Source: Hanstruepera flava
GTDB lineage: Bacteria > Bacteroidota > Bacteroidia > Flavobacteriales > Flavobacteriaceae
NCBI RefSeq assembly: GCF_023634025.1
Contig: NZ_JALJCW010000001.1
Coordinates: 541,501 to 605,500, forward strand
Length of the DNA: 64,000 nucleotides
Direction: 5' to 3'
The position numbers and the translations under genes are program-made. The notes beneath the pieces were generated by a model. The model was given only the letters and a program-made list of their open reading frames with translations, made no database searches and was not told where the DNA came from. Shown here piece after piece: positions 39,241 through 49,533 of this stretch. Every line of letters starts with the position of its first letter. Within the stretch, counting starts at the first letter, position 1.

Positions 39241-42200
39241 TTATCGTTTTAAAGTAAAATGAGCTTTGAATTCTTTCATGGCTTCATCATCTGGCGATTC
39301 TTTATATACAACTGTAAACCAATAATCACTAGTAGGTAATGGATATCCATTTAAAGTCCCATCCCAACCGGGACTTGTCGGACTTAATTGTTTTAATAGC
39401 TTACCATATCTATCAAATATATTGATAACGGCATCTGGATTGATACCGGAAATTTGCCATAAGTCATTATCTCCATCGTTATTTGGCGTAAAGAAAAGCG
39501 GGTAATCTATAACAAACACAGTATCACTTGCTATACCACAACCATTAATATCTCTAACCTGAATTTCATGTTCACCATATAATACATTAGTAAAAGTATA
39601 TGTATTATCGTTTGGCTCATTACTCACCCAAGGGCCATTATCAATACTGAACTCAAAAATCGCAGACGCTTCACCTGTTGCCGTAACAGAAATTACATTA
39701 TTATCTGCAAATGCTTCAGTAACAACTTCTGCATTAACAACTGGAGGGGAACTTTCTTCTACTACCACTGGTATAATATTAAAGCATCCTGTAGTAATAT
39801 TGATTATCTCTACAGTATGAGTTCCTGCTTGTGTAGCCGTGTAACTTGAATCTATACTCACAATCGTTCCATTTGGGTCTACCCATTCAAAAGTGTATTC
39901 AGCAGGATTTAAACCTGTGTCAATAGTTGGAGGTCCAACAACTTCAGTTCCATTTGTGTTTATACATATAACATATTGATCATCTGGAATAAATACAGGA
40001 AGTGGATTAACTATTAAATCAAACGTAATAATAGTATAGCAACCTGTCCCATCGTCATTAGGATCTGCAGGGTCTCCCGTATTAGTTACTCGAACATAAA
40101 TAGTTTGAGGGGTAGAAATATTAGTATAATTTGTTGGTGTAGCTATTTCATTATCTCCAGATTCTGCATCAGCAAATGATTCATAATAAGTAACTGACTC
40201 ATCAAAATCATTAAGCATCAACCCTTCATTTTGGGTCAAATCAAACTCTTCCTGTAAATTACCAGGGTCATTATCATCACATTCTATTAAATCTGGCAAT
40301 ACATCATTAGGTGTCGGCAATGTGTTAACCACTAACGTTAATGTTGTAAGTGCATAGCAACTACTTCCACTGGTAGTTTCAGTCACAGTTACAAAAAGTG
40401 TTTGTGGGTTATGAGGCAAACCTCCTACTGAAGTATTATCATAAGCTGTATAATCTGCAATTGGATTATTAGGAATATCCATCATTGTTTCATAATAGTC
40501 AACCACTAGTGAAGCATTCCCCCCTGTTAAAGCATCATTTTGTGTTGTTAAATCAAATGTTGCAAAGCCATCATTATCATTTGAATCATCACAAATTTCA
40601 TAAATACTGTCTTGAGCATCTACTGGAATTACAGGCAATGGATTTACAACTAAATCGAATTGACCTACTGTAACACATCCATTGGTACCTTCTAAACGAA
40701 CATATATTGTTGTGTTTCCGGATACGTAGTCTGACAATTGAGGTTCAACTATTGGATTCATTCCAGGAACAGCTTCAGCATCGGCTAAAGTTTCATGATA
40801 AGTAAGTGTGAAATCAGCTGGGTTTTGAGTACCATAAATAGTATCATTCATAGTGTTCAAGTTAAATGATACAATACCATCGTCATCGTCATCACACAAA
40901 GCATAAGGATCAATATTTGATGGAACGTCTGGTGATGGTTCAACAATAAGCATTAATTCAACTACTGTTGGACAATCAGCTCCAGTACCAAAACTTACTC
41001 TTATATAAATAATCTGTCCAGCAACATTAGAAAGTGTATCACCTTGAGGGTTTACATTATCTAAAGCATTTTGTTGAGTTAAATGGAAAGACACAATTAA
41101 AGTTGGATCTACAGCCAAAATTTCATCTCTAGCACTAGACAAATCAAAAGTAGCAAGACCATCATTATCAACATCACATTCTTGTAATGGAGTTGGAGTA
41201 GCCACTGAAGGTCCGTTTGTAACTTCTAAAATTAAAGTTGTAGTATCGTAACACCCTGTAATATTATCCTCAACTCTAACATAAAGGGTTTCACCATCTG
41301 TTCCTACATAAGCTGTATCTGAAGGCATTACTTGTGGTGTTCCCATTTGAGCAGCTACTAATGAGTTATAATAGGTTACGCTATAATTTGAATTACTTCC
41401 AGAAATTTCGTCATTTTTAACAGTTAAGTCCATTTCAACCATTCCATCTGGAGTAGCATCGTCACAAACCACAAGCGGTGTAGGATTCACAACAGTTGGT
41501 AATGGGTGTACATTTAATGTTGTTGTTGATGTATTCGGACAAGTCCCATTTGTTGTATACTCAATAGTATAAGTAGCTCCAGGAGTTCCGCCAGTAACTT
41601 CTCCTGTTGCAACATCAATTACAGCGCTATCTGGGGGTACTGGGTTAAAAGCAAAGGTTCCACCTGGTAAACCAGTGACAGTTGCTGTACCTCCATCACA
41701 AGTTGGAGACACAGTAAACGACGCATCATCAATTGCAATAACTGTAATATCTTCTGTGCTTGTAGCAGGACATGCTCCAACTGTTGTATATTCTATGGTG
41801 TAAGTTGTTCCAGAAGTTCCATTAGTAACTTCTCCAGTTGCCACATCAATTACAGCACCATCCGTCGGCACTGGATTAAATGCAAATGATCCGCCAGTAT
41901 TCCCTATAATTGTTACAGTTCCACCGTCACATGTTGGCGAAGTTGTAAAACTAGCATCATCTGCTGGTAAAACAGTTACATTTTGAAAACTAGATTCTGG
42001 ACAAGGCCCACTAGTAGTATATTGAACAGTATAAGTAGCACCTGGTGTCCCACCTGTTACTTCTCCTGTATTTGAATCTATAGTAGCACCATCTGTTGGT
42101 ACTGGATTAAAAACAAAAGTACCACCCGAATCGCCAACAATGGTCATTGTCCCACCATCACAGTTTTCTAAAACAGTAAATGCGGGATCCTCTTGTGAAT

Positions 42201-45200
42201 ATACTGTTACATCTTCTGTACTACTTGCTCCACAAGAACCAAAAATAGTATACTCAATGGTATAGGTAGCTCCTGAAGTCCCATTAGTAACTTCACCAGT
42301 TACTGGATCTATAGCTGCTGTATCTGTTGGCACTGGATTAAACGTAAATGTTCCACCAGTATCTCCAGTTATAGTTACAGTTCCTCCGTCACAAGTTGGC
42401 GTCGTAGTAAATGTAGGATTTGCAGTAGTTAAAACTGTTACATCTTGTGTTGAGGAAGCAGGACAAACACCTGTTGTTGTATATTCAATAGTATAAGTTG
42501 TTCCTGATGTTCCACCAGTAACAGTTCCTGTTGAAGTATCAATAGAAGCCCCATCAGTTGGCACTGGGTTAAATGCGAAGGTTCCGCCAACTGTACCAGT
42601 AATAGTTACGGTTCCGCCATCACATGTTGGCGAAGTTGTAAAACTAGCATCATCATTAGGCAATACGGTTATATCTTGAGTAGAACTTGCACCACACGAA
42701 CCAGATATAGTATATTCTATAGTATAGGTTGTACCTGGAACGCCATTGGTAACAACTCCTGTTGCTGCATCTATTGTTGCCCCATCGGTAGGCACGGGAT
42801 TAAAAGTAAAAGTTCCACCTGTGTCTCCTGTTATTGTAACTGTTCCGCCATCACAAGTATCTGTTGTAGTGAATGCTGGATTAGCAGTTGCTAACACCGT
42901 TACGTCTTCTGTACTACTCGATCCACATGCACCAGAAATAGTATACTCAATGGTATAAGTTGCTCCAGATGTTCCTCCTGTAACCTCACCAGTCGCTGGG
43001 TCAATTACAGCACCGTCCGTAGGCACTGGATTAAAAGCAAAAGTTCCACCAGTATCTCCAGTTATAGTGACAGTTCCTCCGTCACATGTTGGTGTGGTTG
43101 TAAAGGAAGGATCTGATGCAGTTAGTGCAGTAACATCTTCTGTACTTGTAGCTGGACAAGACCCCATTGTTGTGTATTCAATGGTATAAGTAGCTCCAGA
43201 TGTTCCATTAGTAACTGTCCCTGTTGTTGCATCAATAACCGCACCATCTGTAGGCGCAGGGTTAAAGGTAAAAGTTCCTCCTGTTGTACCTGTAATAGTA
43301 ACAGTACCACCATCACATGTTGGAGTCGTTGTAAAACTAGCATCATCTGCGGTTAATACGGTAACATCTTCAGAAGATGTTGCACTACAAGCTCCTGTTA
43401 TTGTATATTCTAAAGTATACTGCGTTCCCGGAACACCGTTTGTAATTGTTCCAGTATTTGCATCAAGAGTTGCTCCATCTGTGGGTACAGGATTAAAAGT
43501 AAAAGTTCCGCCAGAAGTTCCTGTAATTGTTGCTGTAGCACCATCACAAGTAGGCGTTAAGGTAAATGTTGCACTTCCGGAGTTATTTACTGTAACAGTC
43601 TCTGATTGTGTTAACGCACCATTACATCCTGAATTAGGATTATAAACGTTCTCTAGGTTCAATGTTTGATCTGCCGTAATTCCTGGAATAGTAACCACAA
43701 AAACTCCAGTAGCATCTAATGTAACTTGCTGGGTTGCTCCTCCATTAACATTATAGTCTACAACATCACCTTCTGAACCTGTTATTGTAAACTCGGCATC
43801 TCCACCAGAGCAAACAGAATTATTACTTGTTAAAGTAATTACTGGTGTAGGTTGAACCACAACAGTAATAGGCCTAACCGCCACATATTCATCTCCTGTT
43901 ATAGCGTCGGTATAAGTAAGTTGGGCAATATAAGTTGTTGTTGTATTCGGTGTAACCGTTAAATTTGTGGGATCAGTTCCTATTACTGCTCCTGTTTCAT
44001 CTAACCATTCAAAATCATAGATTGGAGTACCGTTCGGATAAAATTGCCAAGCTTCAGGAATCGAAACATCCCAGACACCAGTATTTCTACCTGGTGGCGC
44101 AATGCCTTGAGTTCCAGCATCATTTTGTATACCTATAGCTGCACGGCCGCCAGCCCATGTTGAACAAACTGGTTTTTGAAAAATATAGGTTTCAATTACA
44201 TTTGTAGACTCATAAAACAAAATCATTTGAGAAGTTCTCAATGTAGTACATCCAAATTGTGGAGGATTAAAAAAGCTAAATACAAACACACGGAAAGGCG
44301 CAGTACCTTTTACCCCAAATGTAATGTTGTATGTATTAGGATCAACTCCTCCTGCTCCTGGAAAAATATCATGAACGGCACCAAAGATATTTCCATCTCC
44401 CAATGCAGCATCAGTATTGTTAGGTATGGTTGCCCCAGCTGCAGGTGTCCAATAATGGAAGGTATTGGCATTGCTTAAATCAAAACTTACAGCTCCGTTA
44501 GTTGACAACACACAACTTTGATAATCATTTTGATAAAACTCAAAATCGAAAGCAAAGTTTAAAACACTACTCCAAATATCATCTACATTAAGATTGGTAT
44601 CACCAGCAGTATCTCCAAAACTAAATGGTGGGTTAAATGGAATTGATCTCACGCCATATGTATTACTCTCTCCCACCTCGGTATATGTAGCTGACAGAGT
44701 GATTGGTGGAATAGTTCCTGTTGCTTGATCAATACAGCCGCCATTGGTAATACAAACATCTCCACTACAATTTATTGAACCTGCACTTGATGTTACATTC
44801 ATATCAAAAGACCCGCTACCAGAACTTGTAGTGGATTCAAAAACTCTAATTTCTATAACAGCAGTATCACAATTAGTTGGGTTGGCATTTTCACAAATCT
44901 CATAAGTTATATAGTATAATCCAGGAGGGGTATTGGCCGCTATACCAACAAAACCAAATGCTGTATTCAATGTAGTAAAGCCCGTTGGGTCTGGCACTGT
45001 TTCAGTCATCGTAAAATTACCTATTGTTGCCACGGTAATAGGTGTGCCGTTAAATAAATCGTTAAAATAAATCCTATCTCCACTTGAATTAGACGGATTC
45101 GGGTTATTTGCCCTTCCAACCAAAACATCATCAATCGCGCTTAATTGCGCCCAAGAATTAGATATAACAAATGAGGAAAATAAAAGAAATAATACTGCTA

Positions 45201-45210
45201 TCTTTTTCAT
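39241..45210 (-). CDS. giant repetitive surface protein with type B T9SS sorting domain
   Basis: The 1989-residue protein starts at ATG 45210 (a TTG two codons upstream is ignored) with a signal peptide (MKKIAVLFLLFSSFVISNSWAQ). The N-terminal 530 residues hold a lectin/PA14-like beta region and an Ig-like link (TPVITLTSNNSVCSGGDAEF). Residues about 544-1237 are nine tandem 77-residue repeats, each with PTCDGGTVTITG and FNPVPTDGA. Residues about 1245-1740 are five looser 95-100-residue repeats with a CDDxxDG...FDL motif. The C-terminus (FFTPNNDGDNDLWQI ... GTLNGYPLPTSDYWF) is the gliding-motility-associated type B T9SS signal. Secreted adhesin-like protein; no enzyme domain seen. Confidence 0.93.
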   Translation of the reverse strand: MKKIAVLFLLFSSFVISNSWAQLSAIDDVLVGRANNPNPSNSSGDRIYFNDLFNGTPITVATIGNFTMTETVPDPTGFTTLNTAFGFVGIAANTPPGLYYITYEICENANPTNCDTAVIEIRVFESTTSSGSGSFDMNVTSSAGSINCSGDVCITNGGCIDQATGTIPPITLSATYTEVGESNTYGVRSIPFNPPFSFGDTAGDTNLNVDDIWSSVLNFAFDFEFYQNDYQSCVLSTNGAVSFDLSNANTFHYWTPAAGATIPNNTDAALGDGNIFGAVHDIFPGAGGVDPNTYNITFGVKGTAPFRVFVFSFFNPPQFGCTTLRTSQMILFYESTNVIETYIFQKPVCSTWAGGRAAIGIQNDAGTQGIAPPGRNTGVWDVSIPEAWQFYPNGTPIYDFEWLDETGAVIGTDPTNLTVTPNTTTTYIAQLTYTDAITGDEYVAVRPITVVVQPTPVITLTSNNSVCSGGDAEFTITGSEGDVVDYNVNGGATQQVTLDATGVFVVTIPGITADQTLNLENVYNPNSGCNGALTQSETVTVNNSGSATFTLTPTCDGATATITGTSGGTFTFNPVPTDGATLDANTGTITNGVPGTQYTLEYTITGACSATSSEDVTVLTADDASFTTTPTCDGGTVTITGTTGGTFTFNPAPTDGAVIDATTGTVTNGTSGATYTIEYTTMGSCPATSTEDVTALTASDPSFTTTPTCDGGTVTITGDTGGTFAFNPVPTDGAVIDPATGEVTGGTSGATYTIEYTISGACGSSSTEDVTVLATANPAFTTTDTCDGGTVTITGDTGGTFTFNPVPTDGATIDAATGVVTNGVPGTTYTIEYTISGSCGASSTQDITVLPNDDASFTTSPTCDGGTVTITGTVGGTFAFNPVPTDGASIDTSTGTVTGGTSGTTYTIEYTTTGVCPASSTQDVTVLTTANPTFTTTPTCDGGTVTITGDTGGTFTFNPVPTDTAAIDPVTGEVTNGTSGATYTIEYTIFGSCGASSTEDVTVYSQEDPAFTVLENCDGGTMTIVGDSGGTFVFNPVPTDGATIDSNTGEVTGGTPGATYTVQYTTSGPCPESSFQNVTVLPADDASFTTSPTCDGGTVTIIGNTGGSFAFNPVPTDGAVIDVATGEVTNGTSGTTYTIEYTTVGACPATSTEDITVIAIDDASFTVSPTCDGGTATVTGLPGGTFAFNPVPPDSAVIDVATGEVTGGTPGATYTIEYTTNGTCPNTSTTTLNVHPLPTVVNPTPLVVCDDATPDGMVEMDLTVKNDEISGSNSNYSVTYYNSLVAAQMGTPQVMPSDTAYVGTDGETLYVRVEDNITGCYDTTTLILEVTNGPSVATPTPLQECDVDNDGLATFDLSSARDEILAVDPTLIVSFHLTQQNALDNVNPQGDTLSNVAGQIIYIRVSFGTGADCPTVVELMLIVEPSPDVPSNIDPYALCDDDDDGIVSFNLNTMNDTIYGTQNPADFTLTYHETLADAEAVPGMNPIVEPQLSDYVSGNTTIYVRLEGTNGCVTVGQFDLVVNPLPVIPVDAQDSIYEICDDSNDNDGFATFDLTTQNDALTGGNASLVVDYYETMMDIPNNPIADYTAYDNTSVGGLPHNPQTLFVTVTETTSGSSCYALTTLTLVVNTLPTPNDVLPDLIECDDNDPGNLQEEFDLTQNEGLMLNDFDESVTYYESFADAESGDNEIATPTNYTNISTPQTIYVRVTNTGDPADPNDDGTGCYTIITFDLIVNPLPVFIPDDQYVICINTNGTEVVGPPTIDTGLNPAEYTFEWVDPNGTIVSIDSSYTATQAGTHTVEIINITTGCFNIIPVVVEESSPPVVNAEVVTEAFADNNVISVTATGEASAIFEFSIDNGPWVSNEPNDNTYTFTNVLYGEHEIQVRDINGCGIASDTVFVIDYPLFFTPNNDGDNDLWQISGINPDAVINIFDRYGKLLKQLSPTSPGWDGTLNGYPLPTSDYWFTVVYKESPDDEAMKEFKAHFTLKR
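41500..43578 (-). repeat. nine exact 231-bp tandem repeats inside the giant T9SS protein gene
   Basis: The cysteine codon of each PTCDGG motif recurs every 231 bp, from 43548 down to 41700 (eight intervals, total 1848 bp). Units differ by synonymous and conservative changes but keep exact length, which suggests selection on the 77-residue fold plus exchange between units. Confidence 0.92.
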
Positions 45211-45382
45211 AAACAAGAACTTTTAATATTTTTTTTCAGGGCTATATTACTAAAGGGTTAAAGGATTATTAATCCAATATTAATATGAGGCGTGAAAATT
45301 AAGAAAAATTTAGGAAAAACGCCTTAATTAATCGATGAAATTAATTGTTTGTTAATACAATGTGCAAAAAAACGGAATTGTG

Positions 45383-46113: not shown

Positions 46114-47595
46114 ATGCAATTATTTAAGCAGCAAGACATAAAAATATACAACACGTTAAGTGGTGAAAAAGAACATTTTAAACCATTAATCGATGGTTAC
46201 GTTGGTATGTATGTTTGTGGCCCTACGGTTTATAGTAATGTGCATTTAGGTAATGTTAGAACATTTATGTCTTTTGACATGATATTCAGATATTTTAGAC
46301 ATTTAGGCTACAAAGTGCGTTATGTTCGAAATATTACGGATGCTGGACACCTTGAAGATGATGCCGATGTTGGAGAGGATAAAATCACAAAAAAAGCACG
46401 ATTAGAATCTATAGAACCTATGGAAATCGTCCAGCGTTATACTGTTGATTTTCATAATGTATTACGAATACTTAATTTTCTTCCGCCAAGCATTGAGCCT
46501 ACTGCAACAGGTCATATTATTGAGCAAATAGAACTTATTCAAACCATTATTGACAACGGTTTTGCCTATGTTATTAATGGCTCTGTTTATTTTGATGTTC
46601 ACAAATATAATGAGTCTCATGAGTACGGCATTTTGAGCAAACGTAAGCTTGACGATTTAATTCATAATACACGTGCTTTAGATGGCCAAAGTGACAAAAA
46701 GAATCCACAAGATTTTGCCTTATGGAAAAAAGCAGAACCTAGTCATATTATGCGTTGGCCTTCACCTTGGAGTGATGGTTTTCCAGGTTGGCATTTGGAA
46801 TGTACGGCCATGAGTACTAAATATTTAGGCGAGCAATTTGATATTCACGGTGGTGGAATGGACTTAAAATTCCCACATCATGAATGTGAGATTGCACAAA
46901 ATCAAGCCGCTAAAAACCAATCACCAGTTAAATACTGGATGCATGCCAATATGCTAGAGCTAAATGGATCCAGAATGAGTAAATCAACTGGAAATTATAT
47001 TAATCCTGCTGAATTATTCTCTGGCGACAATGATATTATGTCTAAAGGCTTTGCTCCTGGTGTTATTCGTTTTTTTATGATGCAAGCGGCTTACAGAAGT
47101 GTTTTAGATTTAACCAATGATGGCTTATTGGCCGCTGAAAAAGGTTATAACAGGTTAATAGATGCTATTAACTTATTAGAAAAACTAAAATCATCATCAT
47201 CATCATCAATTAATGTTTCTGACTGGAAACAAAAATGTTACGATGCTATGAATGATGATTTCAATACGCCAATATTGATTGCCAATCTCTTTGAGGCCGT
47301 TAAATACATTAATCAAATAAAGGACGGAAAATCTACTATAACTCCTGAAGATTTAAAACTATTAAAAGAGACCATTAACACTTTTACTTTTGATATTTTA
47401 GGTCTGGAAAACACATCAAAAACCGAAAATAATTCTGATAAATTATCTGGCGCAGTTGAACTTTTAATTAAAATGCGTCAAGAAGCTCGAGCCAATAGAG
47501 ATTTTGCTTTGTCAGATAAAATTAGAGACGAATTAGCTGCAGCAGGCATACAACTTAACGATAGTCGAGAAGGCACAACGTTTTCCATCAATTAA
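46114..47595 (+). CDS. cysS: cysteinyl-tRNA synthetase
   Basis: The enzyme charges tRNA-Cys. The 493-residue class I synthetase has the zinc Cys and HIGH-type motif in [19 protein letters not shown], the zinc-site [27 protein letters not shown], and the KMSKS-type [10 protein letters not shown] run of six serines (about residues 360-365) comes from six TCA codons at 47191-47208 in the linker before the helical anticodon domain. Between folE (22 bp) and yidD (2 bp) on the same strand. Confidence 0.95.
47191..47208 (+). repeat. TCA x6 microsatellite inside cysS
   Basis: Six identical TCA codons encode a poly-serine stretch; slippage would change length in frame. Confidence 0.9.
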
Positions 47596-47597
47596 TT

Positions 47598-47834
47598 ATG
47601 AAAAAGATTTTAATTACACCTTTTCTATTTTTAATTAAAATCTATCAAACATTAATATCACCTCTTACACCAGCTAGTTGCAGGTTTCAGCCAACGTGTT
47701 CTCATTATTCTAAAGAAGCTTTATTGAAACACGGCTTGTGGAAAGGTGGAGGCTTGGCGCTAAAAAGGATTTTTAGTTGTCATCCTTGGGGGCGCAGCGG
47801 TTACGATCCTGTTCCTGAAAAGGATGACAACTAA
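47598..47834 (+). CDS. yidD: membrane protein insertion efficiency factor YidD, altered C-terminus
   Basis: YidD helps YidC insert inner-membrane proteins. The 78-residue product has the family core [20 protein letters not shown], then [11 protein letters not shown], and [19 protein letters not shown]. The last residues (DDN, then stop) are encoded by a 19-bp inverted copy of the IFSCHPW codons, and a second copy of the [11 protein letters not shown] coding segment lies 120 bp downstream in frame, ending LDKK-stop. So the gene's 3' end has been rearranged, although the conserved core is intact. 2 bp after cysS. Confidence 0.92.
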
Positions 47835-47838
47835 AAAT
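47769..47838. repeat. 19-bp inverted repeat at the 3' end of yidD
   Basis: Bases 47769-47787 (coding IFSCHP) are exactly reverse-complementary to 47820-47838, across a 32-bp loop. No T-run follows, so it is unlike an ordinary terminator. Confidence 0.9.
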
Positions 47839-47942
47839 TTCCCACGCGCCTGCTCGCCCTATCTCTAAAAATGTACACTGTACATTTTCTTAACGTTCTG
47901 TCGCCTTGGGGATGCAGCGGTTACGATCCTGTTCCTGAAAAG
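47784..47942 (+). repeat. 39-bp direct repeat of the yidD 3' end, 120 bp apart
   Basis: Segments 47784-47822 and 47904-47942 match at 37 of 39 positions. Both keep the yidD reading frame ([13 protein letters not shown]). Between them lie a yidD stop, a GC-richer stretch and a 9-bp palindrome at 47868-47888 (AAAATGTAC-3 nt-GTACATTTT). Confidence 0.9.
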
Positions 47943-48028
47943 CTTGATAAAAAATAACATATCATTATATTTCATTGCTTTCGTTTCCGTTTTCAATTGT
48001 ATATATTTACTTCGCTAAATAATAATCT

Positions 48029-48955
48029 ATGTATTTATTAAAATTCGATTGGAACCCTATTACTGGTATTGATATTGCCGGTAATTTTAAATTACATTTT
48101 TACAGTGTTATGTGGATAGTTGCCTTCCTTTTAGGTTGGTATATTATGAAACGTATTTTCACAAGAGAAAAGATAAATTTAGATTATTTAGATCCGTTAT
48201 TTATTTATACCGTTTTGGCCACAATGCTGGGAGCAAGACTTGGACATGTTCTATTTTATCAATCGGAGTTAATATCTCAAGATTTTTTTAGCATCTTCCT
48301 GCCTTTTAGGTTCAATCCAGAATTTGAGTTTACTGGATTTCAAGGATTGGCAAGCCATGGTGCTGCCATAGGAATTATAATCGGAATGTATTTATACCGA
48401 AGAAAATATAAGTACAAATCGCTGATGTGGATATTAGATCGTGTTGTGATTCCAGTAGCTTCTGGTGCTATTTTTATTAGAATTGGAAATTTTATTAATT
48501 CTGAAATCATTGGAAAGGTAACCGATTCGGCTTTTGGCGTCCGCTTTATTCAGGATTTTTATGGCAAGCGTCAAATTGTGGCAGAAACAGGTATACAGGA
48601 TTATAAAGATGCCTATGCAGCTGTTACCAAGAACCCACAATTTCAGAATTTGCTCGACGCTGTTCCGTATAGACATCCTGCACAATTGTACGAATCTTTC
48701 TGCTATATTTTTGTCTTTCTAATTTTATGGTATATATACACTAAAACACAGAAAAGCGAGCAAACCGGATTTTTATTTGGAGCCTTTTTAGTGATGCTAT
48801 GGACTATACGATTTTTTGTAGAGTTCGTAAAAGAGCCTCAAGGCGAAGAATATATTACTATGATGGGATTAAACACCGGACAAATGTTGAGTATTCCATT
48901 TATAATCATAGGACTCTACTTTATGTTTATTTACAAACCTAAAACCAAGTCATAA
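48029..48955 (+). CDS. lgt: prolipoprotein diacylglyceryl transferase
   Basis: Lgt adds diacylglycerol to the lipobox cysteine of prelipoproteins, the first step of lipoprotein maturation. The 308-residue protein has seven helices, the ARLGHVLFYQ region, the FQGLASHGAAIGII motif with the essential His, and the signature RIGNFINSEIIG. The C-terminal helices contain RFFVEFVKEPQ. 5 bp upstream of the DUF192 gene. Several lipoproteins in this window are its presumed substrates. Confidence 0.95.
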   Translation: MYLLKFDWNPITGIDIAGNFKLHFYSVMWIVAFLLGWYIMKRIFTREKINLDYLDPLFIYTVLATMLGARLGHVLFYQSELISQDFFSIFLPFRFNPEFEFTGFQGLASHGAAIGIIIGMYLYRRKYKYKSLMWILDRVVIPVASGAIFIRIGNFINSEIIGKVTDSAFGVRFIQDFYGKRQIVAETGIQDYKDAYAAVTKNPQFQNLLDAVPYRHPAQLYESFCYIFVFLILWYIYTKTQKSEQTGFLFGAFLVMLWTIRFFVEFVKEPQGEEYITMMGLNTGQMLSIPFIIIGLYFMFIYKPKTKS

Positions 48956-49458: not shown

Positions 49459-49475
49459 ATAAGAAATAGAACAAT

Positions 49476-49514
49476 AAAAAAAGCCTTTTTGATAATTCAA
49501 AAAGGCTTTTTTTA
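49476..49514. terminator. bidirectional terminator between DUF192 gene and secDF
   Basis: AAAAAAGCCTTTTTGA and TCAAAAAGGCTTTTTT form a 16-bp stem with a 4-nt loop, between convergent genes. Confidence 0.9.
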
Positions 49515-49533
49515 TTGTTATTTGAAAACAGGC

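Follow-up and report, generated by a model that had tools for sequence, protein, structure and literature searches.

In the window (the whole 64,000-nt stretch of Hanstruepera flava DNA analysed here), the 3' end of yidD very probably carries a REP/MITE-like, non-autonomous palindrome, which either was acquired at this site by an ancestor shared by several Flavobacteriaceae genera or reached it repeatedly. On this reading, a conserved gene can take up a very small repeat at its end and stay unbroken, a new tail being supplied and the old one left as a spare, and the yidD site shows filling, emptying and amplification across genera. In the available part of PMC2229807, the movement of gene-less bacterial repeats is described as hypothesised and without experimental support; since hosts with empty, single and tandem sites exist, such movement can be tested at one defined locus.

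The yidD 3' end in the window

The gene lies between cysS and lgt and was identified by its Pfam YidD match (E 3.2e-29, residues 9-72 of 78). An earlier sequence-only reading held that the core of the protein is preserved, and the domain is indeed intact; YidD with its new C-terminus, KDDN, probably still works. Along the gene follow arm A, the target T, a short stretch with the inverted copy A', the palindromic core, a second T and the native end.

Table 1 Features of the yidD 3' end in the window (positions are those of the window).
Feature	Position	Strand	Basis or remark
yidD ORF, 78 aa	47598..47834	+	final residues KDDN and stop contributed by the inserted unit
Arm A in the host's IFSCHP codons, matched by the inverted copy	47769..47787	+	inverted-repeat search
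T, left copy of the duplicated target	47784..47822	+	sequence and direct-repeat search
Arm A', exact reverse complement of A, codes KDDN-stop	47820..47838	+	inverted-repeat search
Palindromic-repeat core: GC-rich left part, outer-stem halves, hairpin, right end ..GTTCTGTCG	47839..47903	+	dispersed family, covariation
Inner hairpin AAAATGTAC-ACT-GTACATTTT, 9 bp, 3-nt loop	47868..47888	+	covaries in other copies
T, right copy, runs into native LDKK-stop and native intergenic DNA	47904..47942	+	matches the empty site of G003
Unit of 120 nt (x/A' + core + T) gained over the empty site	47823..47942	+	locus comparison

The sequence-only reading had also stated that YidD now ends in an inverted copy of its own upstream codons, and this was borne out by a 19-nt exact match between A and A'. 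Among 200 dinucleotide shuffles of 47300-48300, none had an exact inverted repeat longer than 14 nt (19 observed) or an exact direct repeat longer than 13 nt (29 observed). The direct repeat (47784-47837 and 47904-47957) is 85% identical over 54 nt at a spacing of 120 nt, and its first 39 nt match at 37 of 39 positions; the recurrence noted earlier is therefore real, but the second copy sits after the YidD stop and is not translated with YidD. The GC-richer stretch with its 9-bp palindrome was likewise confirmed, with 64% GC in 47839-47866, 46% over the core (47839-47903) and 34% in the whole window, and the 201-nt strand at the locus folds as RNA with z = -3.69.

The ORF list holds no gene, recombinase included, within the 120-nt unit, and no terminal inverted repeats were found at the unit's ends, its sole long inverted pair being the host-matched arm. 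A known Rfam family was rejected, as there was no match at 47.6-48.0 kb up to E 1 and a search of 11 loci returned only tRNAs at gathering scores. An intrinsic terminator was set aside because the window's stretch held no terminator-like site, and a by-eye impression of a TPP riboswitch beside L180 and L279 was dropped, Rfam giving no match in L180. Elsewhere in the window, 49463-49524 is hairpin-like, lies between two convergent genes and has sub-threshold Rfam matches on both strands, perhaps marking a two-way terminator; 39241-45216 is a repetitive ORF of 1991 aa with tandem domains and a C-terminus that by eye is of the gliding/secretion type.

Filled, empty and tandem sites in relatives

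We compared 110 distinct yidD loci, comprising the best 30 of 58 matching genomes (60 searched, own included) and the best 80 of 559 named-genome matches; both sets were ranked by likeness to the query and so represent near relatives and not a fair sample. A unit with the same junctions occurred patchily in 25 of the 110, the window included, although bearing loci may be over-represented in the best 30 because the query of the 60-genome YidD search ended in KDDN. Bearing records were named Psychroserpens, Bizionia, Algibacter, Xanthomarina, Formosa, Lacinutrix, Subsaximicrobium and Winogradskyella, among others; two loci (L064 and L085) were called bearing on the evidence of the arm and the sequence after it, at which point their contigs stop. 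The sequence-only reading had proposed aligning the locus with close relatives and had taken sharing by relatives of varied distance as the sign of an old functional 3' element: the structure is shared across genera, but not by all relatives, 85 of the 110 loci being without it. A search with the core revealed six further yidD loci with the unit (L165, L169, L178, L311, L313 and L314), and the first three of these, together with the 25 from the YidD-protein searches, make up the 28 bearing loci considered below.

The four congeners compared (G001-G004) were without the unit. G003 (L007), the window's sister in the CysS tree, has a single uninterrupted yidD end, EKLDKK-stop; it shares 121 of 125 bases with the right copy and adjoining intergenic stretch of the window, in agreement with the earlier suggestion that the downstream copy marks the ancestral end of the gene. 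We also looked between the two for a recombination breakpoint at the insert and claim none: on either side of yidD the flanking genes are 81-89% identical, and a value of 98% is confined to the short intergenic stretch. No insertion within one species was seen among the genomes compared, all of them at species level.

Tandem units at yidD were found twofold in L054, L063, L093 and L105 and threefold in L089 and L178, with locus hairpin counts including chance second matches in L016, L088 and L115. The second T was the host's own variant, identical at 29 or more of 35 positions, in 21 of the 28 bearing loci; it was decayed in four (L058, L060, L069 and L088) and unreadable in three (L064, L085 and L169). 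Across the 21 loci with a well-kept second copy, the window included, T-to-T spacing ranged over 114-144 nt, so the 40-codon spacing pointed out earlier is correct here (120 nt) but not special. Downstream of the last T, each lineage has its own tail: EKLDKK in the window and G003, EKED in Psychroserpens, and PPKED or PPKEN in Winogradskyella.

The KDDN-stop C-terminus of YidD was present in 25 of the 28 bearing loci and in none of the 85 non-bearing ones. The remaining three bearing loci end in KDDS, TDDN and KDNN, the last being found with the core in L115 and, among loci without it, in L015; in L313 and L314, YidD ends in PVP-stop instead of KDDN. The first 17 nt of arm A were exact in 21 of 28 bearing loci versus 24 of 77 non-bearing loci (those of the 85 with a clear IFSCHPWG motif), by statistics that ignore kinship. 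Compared at 14 positions, A and A' matched fully in 19 of the 28 loci; seven others had a single mismatch, and L060 and L115 had two each. Where the host departs from the common A (L008, L069, L313 and L314), A' has changed in step. The arm of L313 and L314 is situated past the stop codon, and coding is therefore not what preserves it in these two loci.

Mapped on a CysS tree of 109 loci, of which 28 carry the unit (three were included for that very reason), presence and absence required 19 changes, at least 12 of them forced by well-supported branches; shuffled traits required 25.2 on average, and none of 500 shuffles was as low as 19. The cores at yidD cluster apart from dispersed ones (5 changes versus 20.5 shuffled), and a single origin of the yidD cores is still conceivable. 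In the four genomes tested, the yidD core differs from the genome's other copies at 18-27 of 64 positions. The L008 core was no nearer to other yidD cores (22 vs 20), and in a nearest-neighbour test a dispersed core was the closer one for 4 of 23 yidD cores, with one tie. Between genera or hosts, the inserts diverge by 21% on average (23 of the 28 bearing loci, a figure lowered by omission of the decayed or cut L058, L060, L064, L069 and L085), while four-fold sites are near saturation (63% in cysS, 64% in upstream yidD), and insert distance hardly tracks host distance (Mantel r 0.15, p 0.08). By these values the insert is not a relic evolving neutrally, nor is it passed on by simple vertical descent; they are compatible with constraint, with lateral spread and with renewed insertion alike.

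A dispersed repeat with host duplications

The core was matched in 54 of 199 genomes of the family (E <= 0.001), with copy numbers undercounted because at most four candidates were scored per genome, and, using a slightly different query, in 8 of 296 genomes drawn from the phylum, three of which belong to another family of the class. When 14 chosen genomes were scanned for the pattern, all 14 had copies, including 45 in G025 and two in the window's own genome, where a search for further copies had been proposed; the reversed pattern gave no copies in the same scan. A scan of viral contigs for the exact 21-nt hairpin gave no match. A literature search outside subscription papers found no description of the repeat family or of the yidD insertion; RepRanger counted palindromes in two Flavobacterium genomes, and the available part of that paper names no such family (PMC12306157).

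Covariation was assessed in 88 distinct cores, 65 dispersed and 23 at yidD. Nine inner-stem pairs are kept in 83-88 of the 88, with up to five pair types. Further out, -4/+3 (74/88 paired vs 38.2 expected) and -5/+4 (73/88 vs 51.5) show all four Watson-Crick types, and -9/+7 shows a pairing excess (77/88 vs 45.0), these being the best of many column pairs under an expectation that treats sequences as independent. Outer-stem covariation was weak among the 23 yidD cores alone (18/23 vs 13.0 and 14.3 expected). In G025:C1 (L244-L263), the core stands within a longer repeat that has an upstream hairpin (17-nt arms in L257) and by eye ends near TTACTCG and GTTTAC.

Host duplications were sought at 105 distinct dispersed copies, excluding yidD loci, repeats of the same stretch and cores with more than five mismatches, by comparing the 45 nt right of the core with the 205 nt to its left (score >=12, start <=14 nt from the right end). 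A duplication directly right of the core was detected in 15 of the 105, versus none of 2833 control pairs with left and right sides taken from different copies; the 90 copies without one indicate that the duplication erodes or is not obligatory. The sites are the argB start (L166), L167, L177, a CRISPR-like array in G206 (seven of the 15, all at this one locus), tRNA-Gln 3' ends (once in G145 and twice, in tandem, in G128), a second copy of the tmRNA end in G030 (L319), and L331. Outside the 15, duplications were seen by eye at tRNA-Asn (L174) and tRNA-Val (L317), and through translation in an apparent tyrosine recombinase (L168).

Several of these loci have features of their own. At L323 (G128:C1:1685600-1687200), tRNA-Gln is followed by two tandem units and a diverged third copy of the tRNA end, which is the yidD situation repeated at a tRNA gene. 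The CRISPR-like array (L179, G206:C8:152000-170000, recognised by eye) has repeat copies inside it that split the array repeats, and these were perhaps carried along during array duplication. In L168 (G099:C54) and L310 (G189:C43), the repeat lies in frame near the N-terminus of what by eye resembles a tyrosine recombinase, with the peptide RAERKENVQCTFLANEPAGA between two copies of YxHYLEKNGY, the first of them shortened in L310. At L319 (G030:C1:608670-610130), the tmRNA gene is followed by two partial 3'-end copies with the core between them, and GGGATTCGAA beside the core complements the T-loop stretch of the tmRNA.

Tested as a general feature of dispersed copies, the inverted arm failed: it was not significant across the 15 duplication-flanked copies (scores 4-10, with controls reaching 10). 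Inverted repeats spanning dispersed copies with a score of 10 or more were found in 7 of 70 cases versus 25 of 522 controls, and no excess is claimed. Single sites with a 10-nt inverted arm are argB and, by eye, tRNA-Val (L317) and tmRNA (L319). In the latter two, GGGATTCGAA adjoining the core is by eye the complement of TTCGAATCCC in the tRNA-Val or tmRNA gene; these arms share the common T-loop sequence and are thus not independent, and that of L319 was missed by the duplication and arm test because the second tmRNA-end copy stands nearer.

Origin of the insert and relation to described elements

The best reading is a non-autonomous mobile palindrome that leaves host duplications of 15-40 nt and is lost or amplified by recombination between them. 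At yidD, a host duplication of ~39 nt begins from the core's right end, and on the left stands an inverted copy of the host DNA just upstream of T. The duplication may stem from repair of, or priming at, a staggered break, and the inverted arm from foldback (template-switch) synthesis, with the match of the arm maintained by the same process or by selection; direct copies of T would permit precise loss and tandem amplification by recombination. A bolder version, possible but doubtful in our view, is that a gene-less palindrome of ~65 nt repeatedly homes to the 3' ends of yidD, tRNA and tmRNA genes across genera and rebuilds its flanks from each new host, as a direct copy on one side and an inverted copy on the other, through some pathway, based on DNA repair or on single strands, that is not known from bacterial repeats.

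Among the events envisaged by the sequence-only reading, the insertion of a small hairpin element stands; a one-off event in this genome does not, since the unit has the same junctions in many genera and its core is dispersed, and the structure is no private accident. Strand switching can create and repair stems (PMC8794818), and the perfect inverted arm resembles its product; nevertheless, a private foldback (template-switch) rearrangement of yidD without any element is very improbable and is refuted as a complete account by those shared junctions and by the core at other loci, surviving only as a possible origin of the inverted arm. An assembly artefact can practically be dismissed: some Xanthomarina contigs do end inside the unit (L064 and L085) or just past the second T (L078), but the structure recurs in many separate assemblies, some of only 1-2 contigs (G184 and G028). 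We consider it unlikely that the unit is an old functional 3' RNA element of yidD, inherited vertically with its hairpins under selection and its losses secondary. Such an element would account for inserts only 21% divergent beside nearly saturated four-fold sites, and for arm pairing that survives the host-specific changes in L008, L069, L313 and L314; against it speak the 85 of 110 loci without the unit, the 19 changes on the CysS tree with at least 12 forced, the weak relation of insert to host distance, the occurrence of the core as a dispersed repeat at unrelated loci, and the lack of a terminator-like site or Rfam match at the window's stretch.

Movement by a Y1 (IS200-like) transposase, as in RAYT-driven REP sequences, is improbable. 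The short imperfect palindrome, its conserved internal loop and the many copies in some genomes are in its favour, as is a mild excess of Y1 matches in carriers (25/54 vs 47/145 others, p 0.10), but RAYT was rejected as a general mover because 29 of the 54 carriers, among them the window's genome and G025 with its 45 copies, have no Y1_Tnp match, and long target duplications are, to our knowledge, not expected of RAYT. The 3' ends of tRNA and tmRNA genes are typical attachment sites, and their duplication at tRNA-Gln and, by eye, at tRNA-Asn, tRNA-Val and tmRNA would suit the scar of an integrative island whose body was lost and whose tyrosine-recombinase att sites were left as direct repeats at gene ends. 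We regard this as quite improbable, a shade more so than a RAYT, since the same covarying core occurs at unrelated targets (yidD, the argB start, tRNA and the CRISPR-like array) and both T copies at yidD are the host's own variant.

We class the repeat as a new family within a known kind, set apart by its unusual flanks, and not as a new category; the nearest described element is YPAL. According to the available part of PMC2229807, YPAL/RU-2 of Yersinia makes target duplications of 3-26 bp at dyad targets. Judged by that description only, both are small and non-autonomous, contain internal inverted repeats, lack TA ends, duplicate their targets over variable lengths and show empty and filled sites between species; the host groups are unrelated, the core measures ~65 nt versus ~168 bp for YPAL, and our repeat differs in the ~39-nt duplication and inverted host copy at yidD, in its tandem arrays and in filling the same gene end in many genera. 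Rickettsia palindromic elements (RPE), as the same part of that source presents them, also lie in frame inside protein genes and in RNA genes, but are longer (105-146 bp), have terminal inverted repeats and belong to another phylum, and their target duplication is marked '?' (PMC2229807). REP families tagged GTAG or CGTC, the latter reported from Bacteroidetes, resemble the repeat as short, covarying, dispersed palindromes present several times per genome; unlike them, as far as the available part of PMC3733652 describes them, our repeat has conserved unpaired TTCGCT and CTTWACGC around the hairpin, host duplications and many carriers without a Y1 match. At the right foot (+3..+6), considering only these tags at this position, CGTC occurs in 6 and TGTC in 9 of 88 cores, together 15 of 88.
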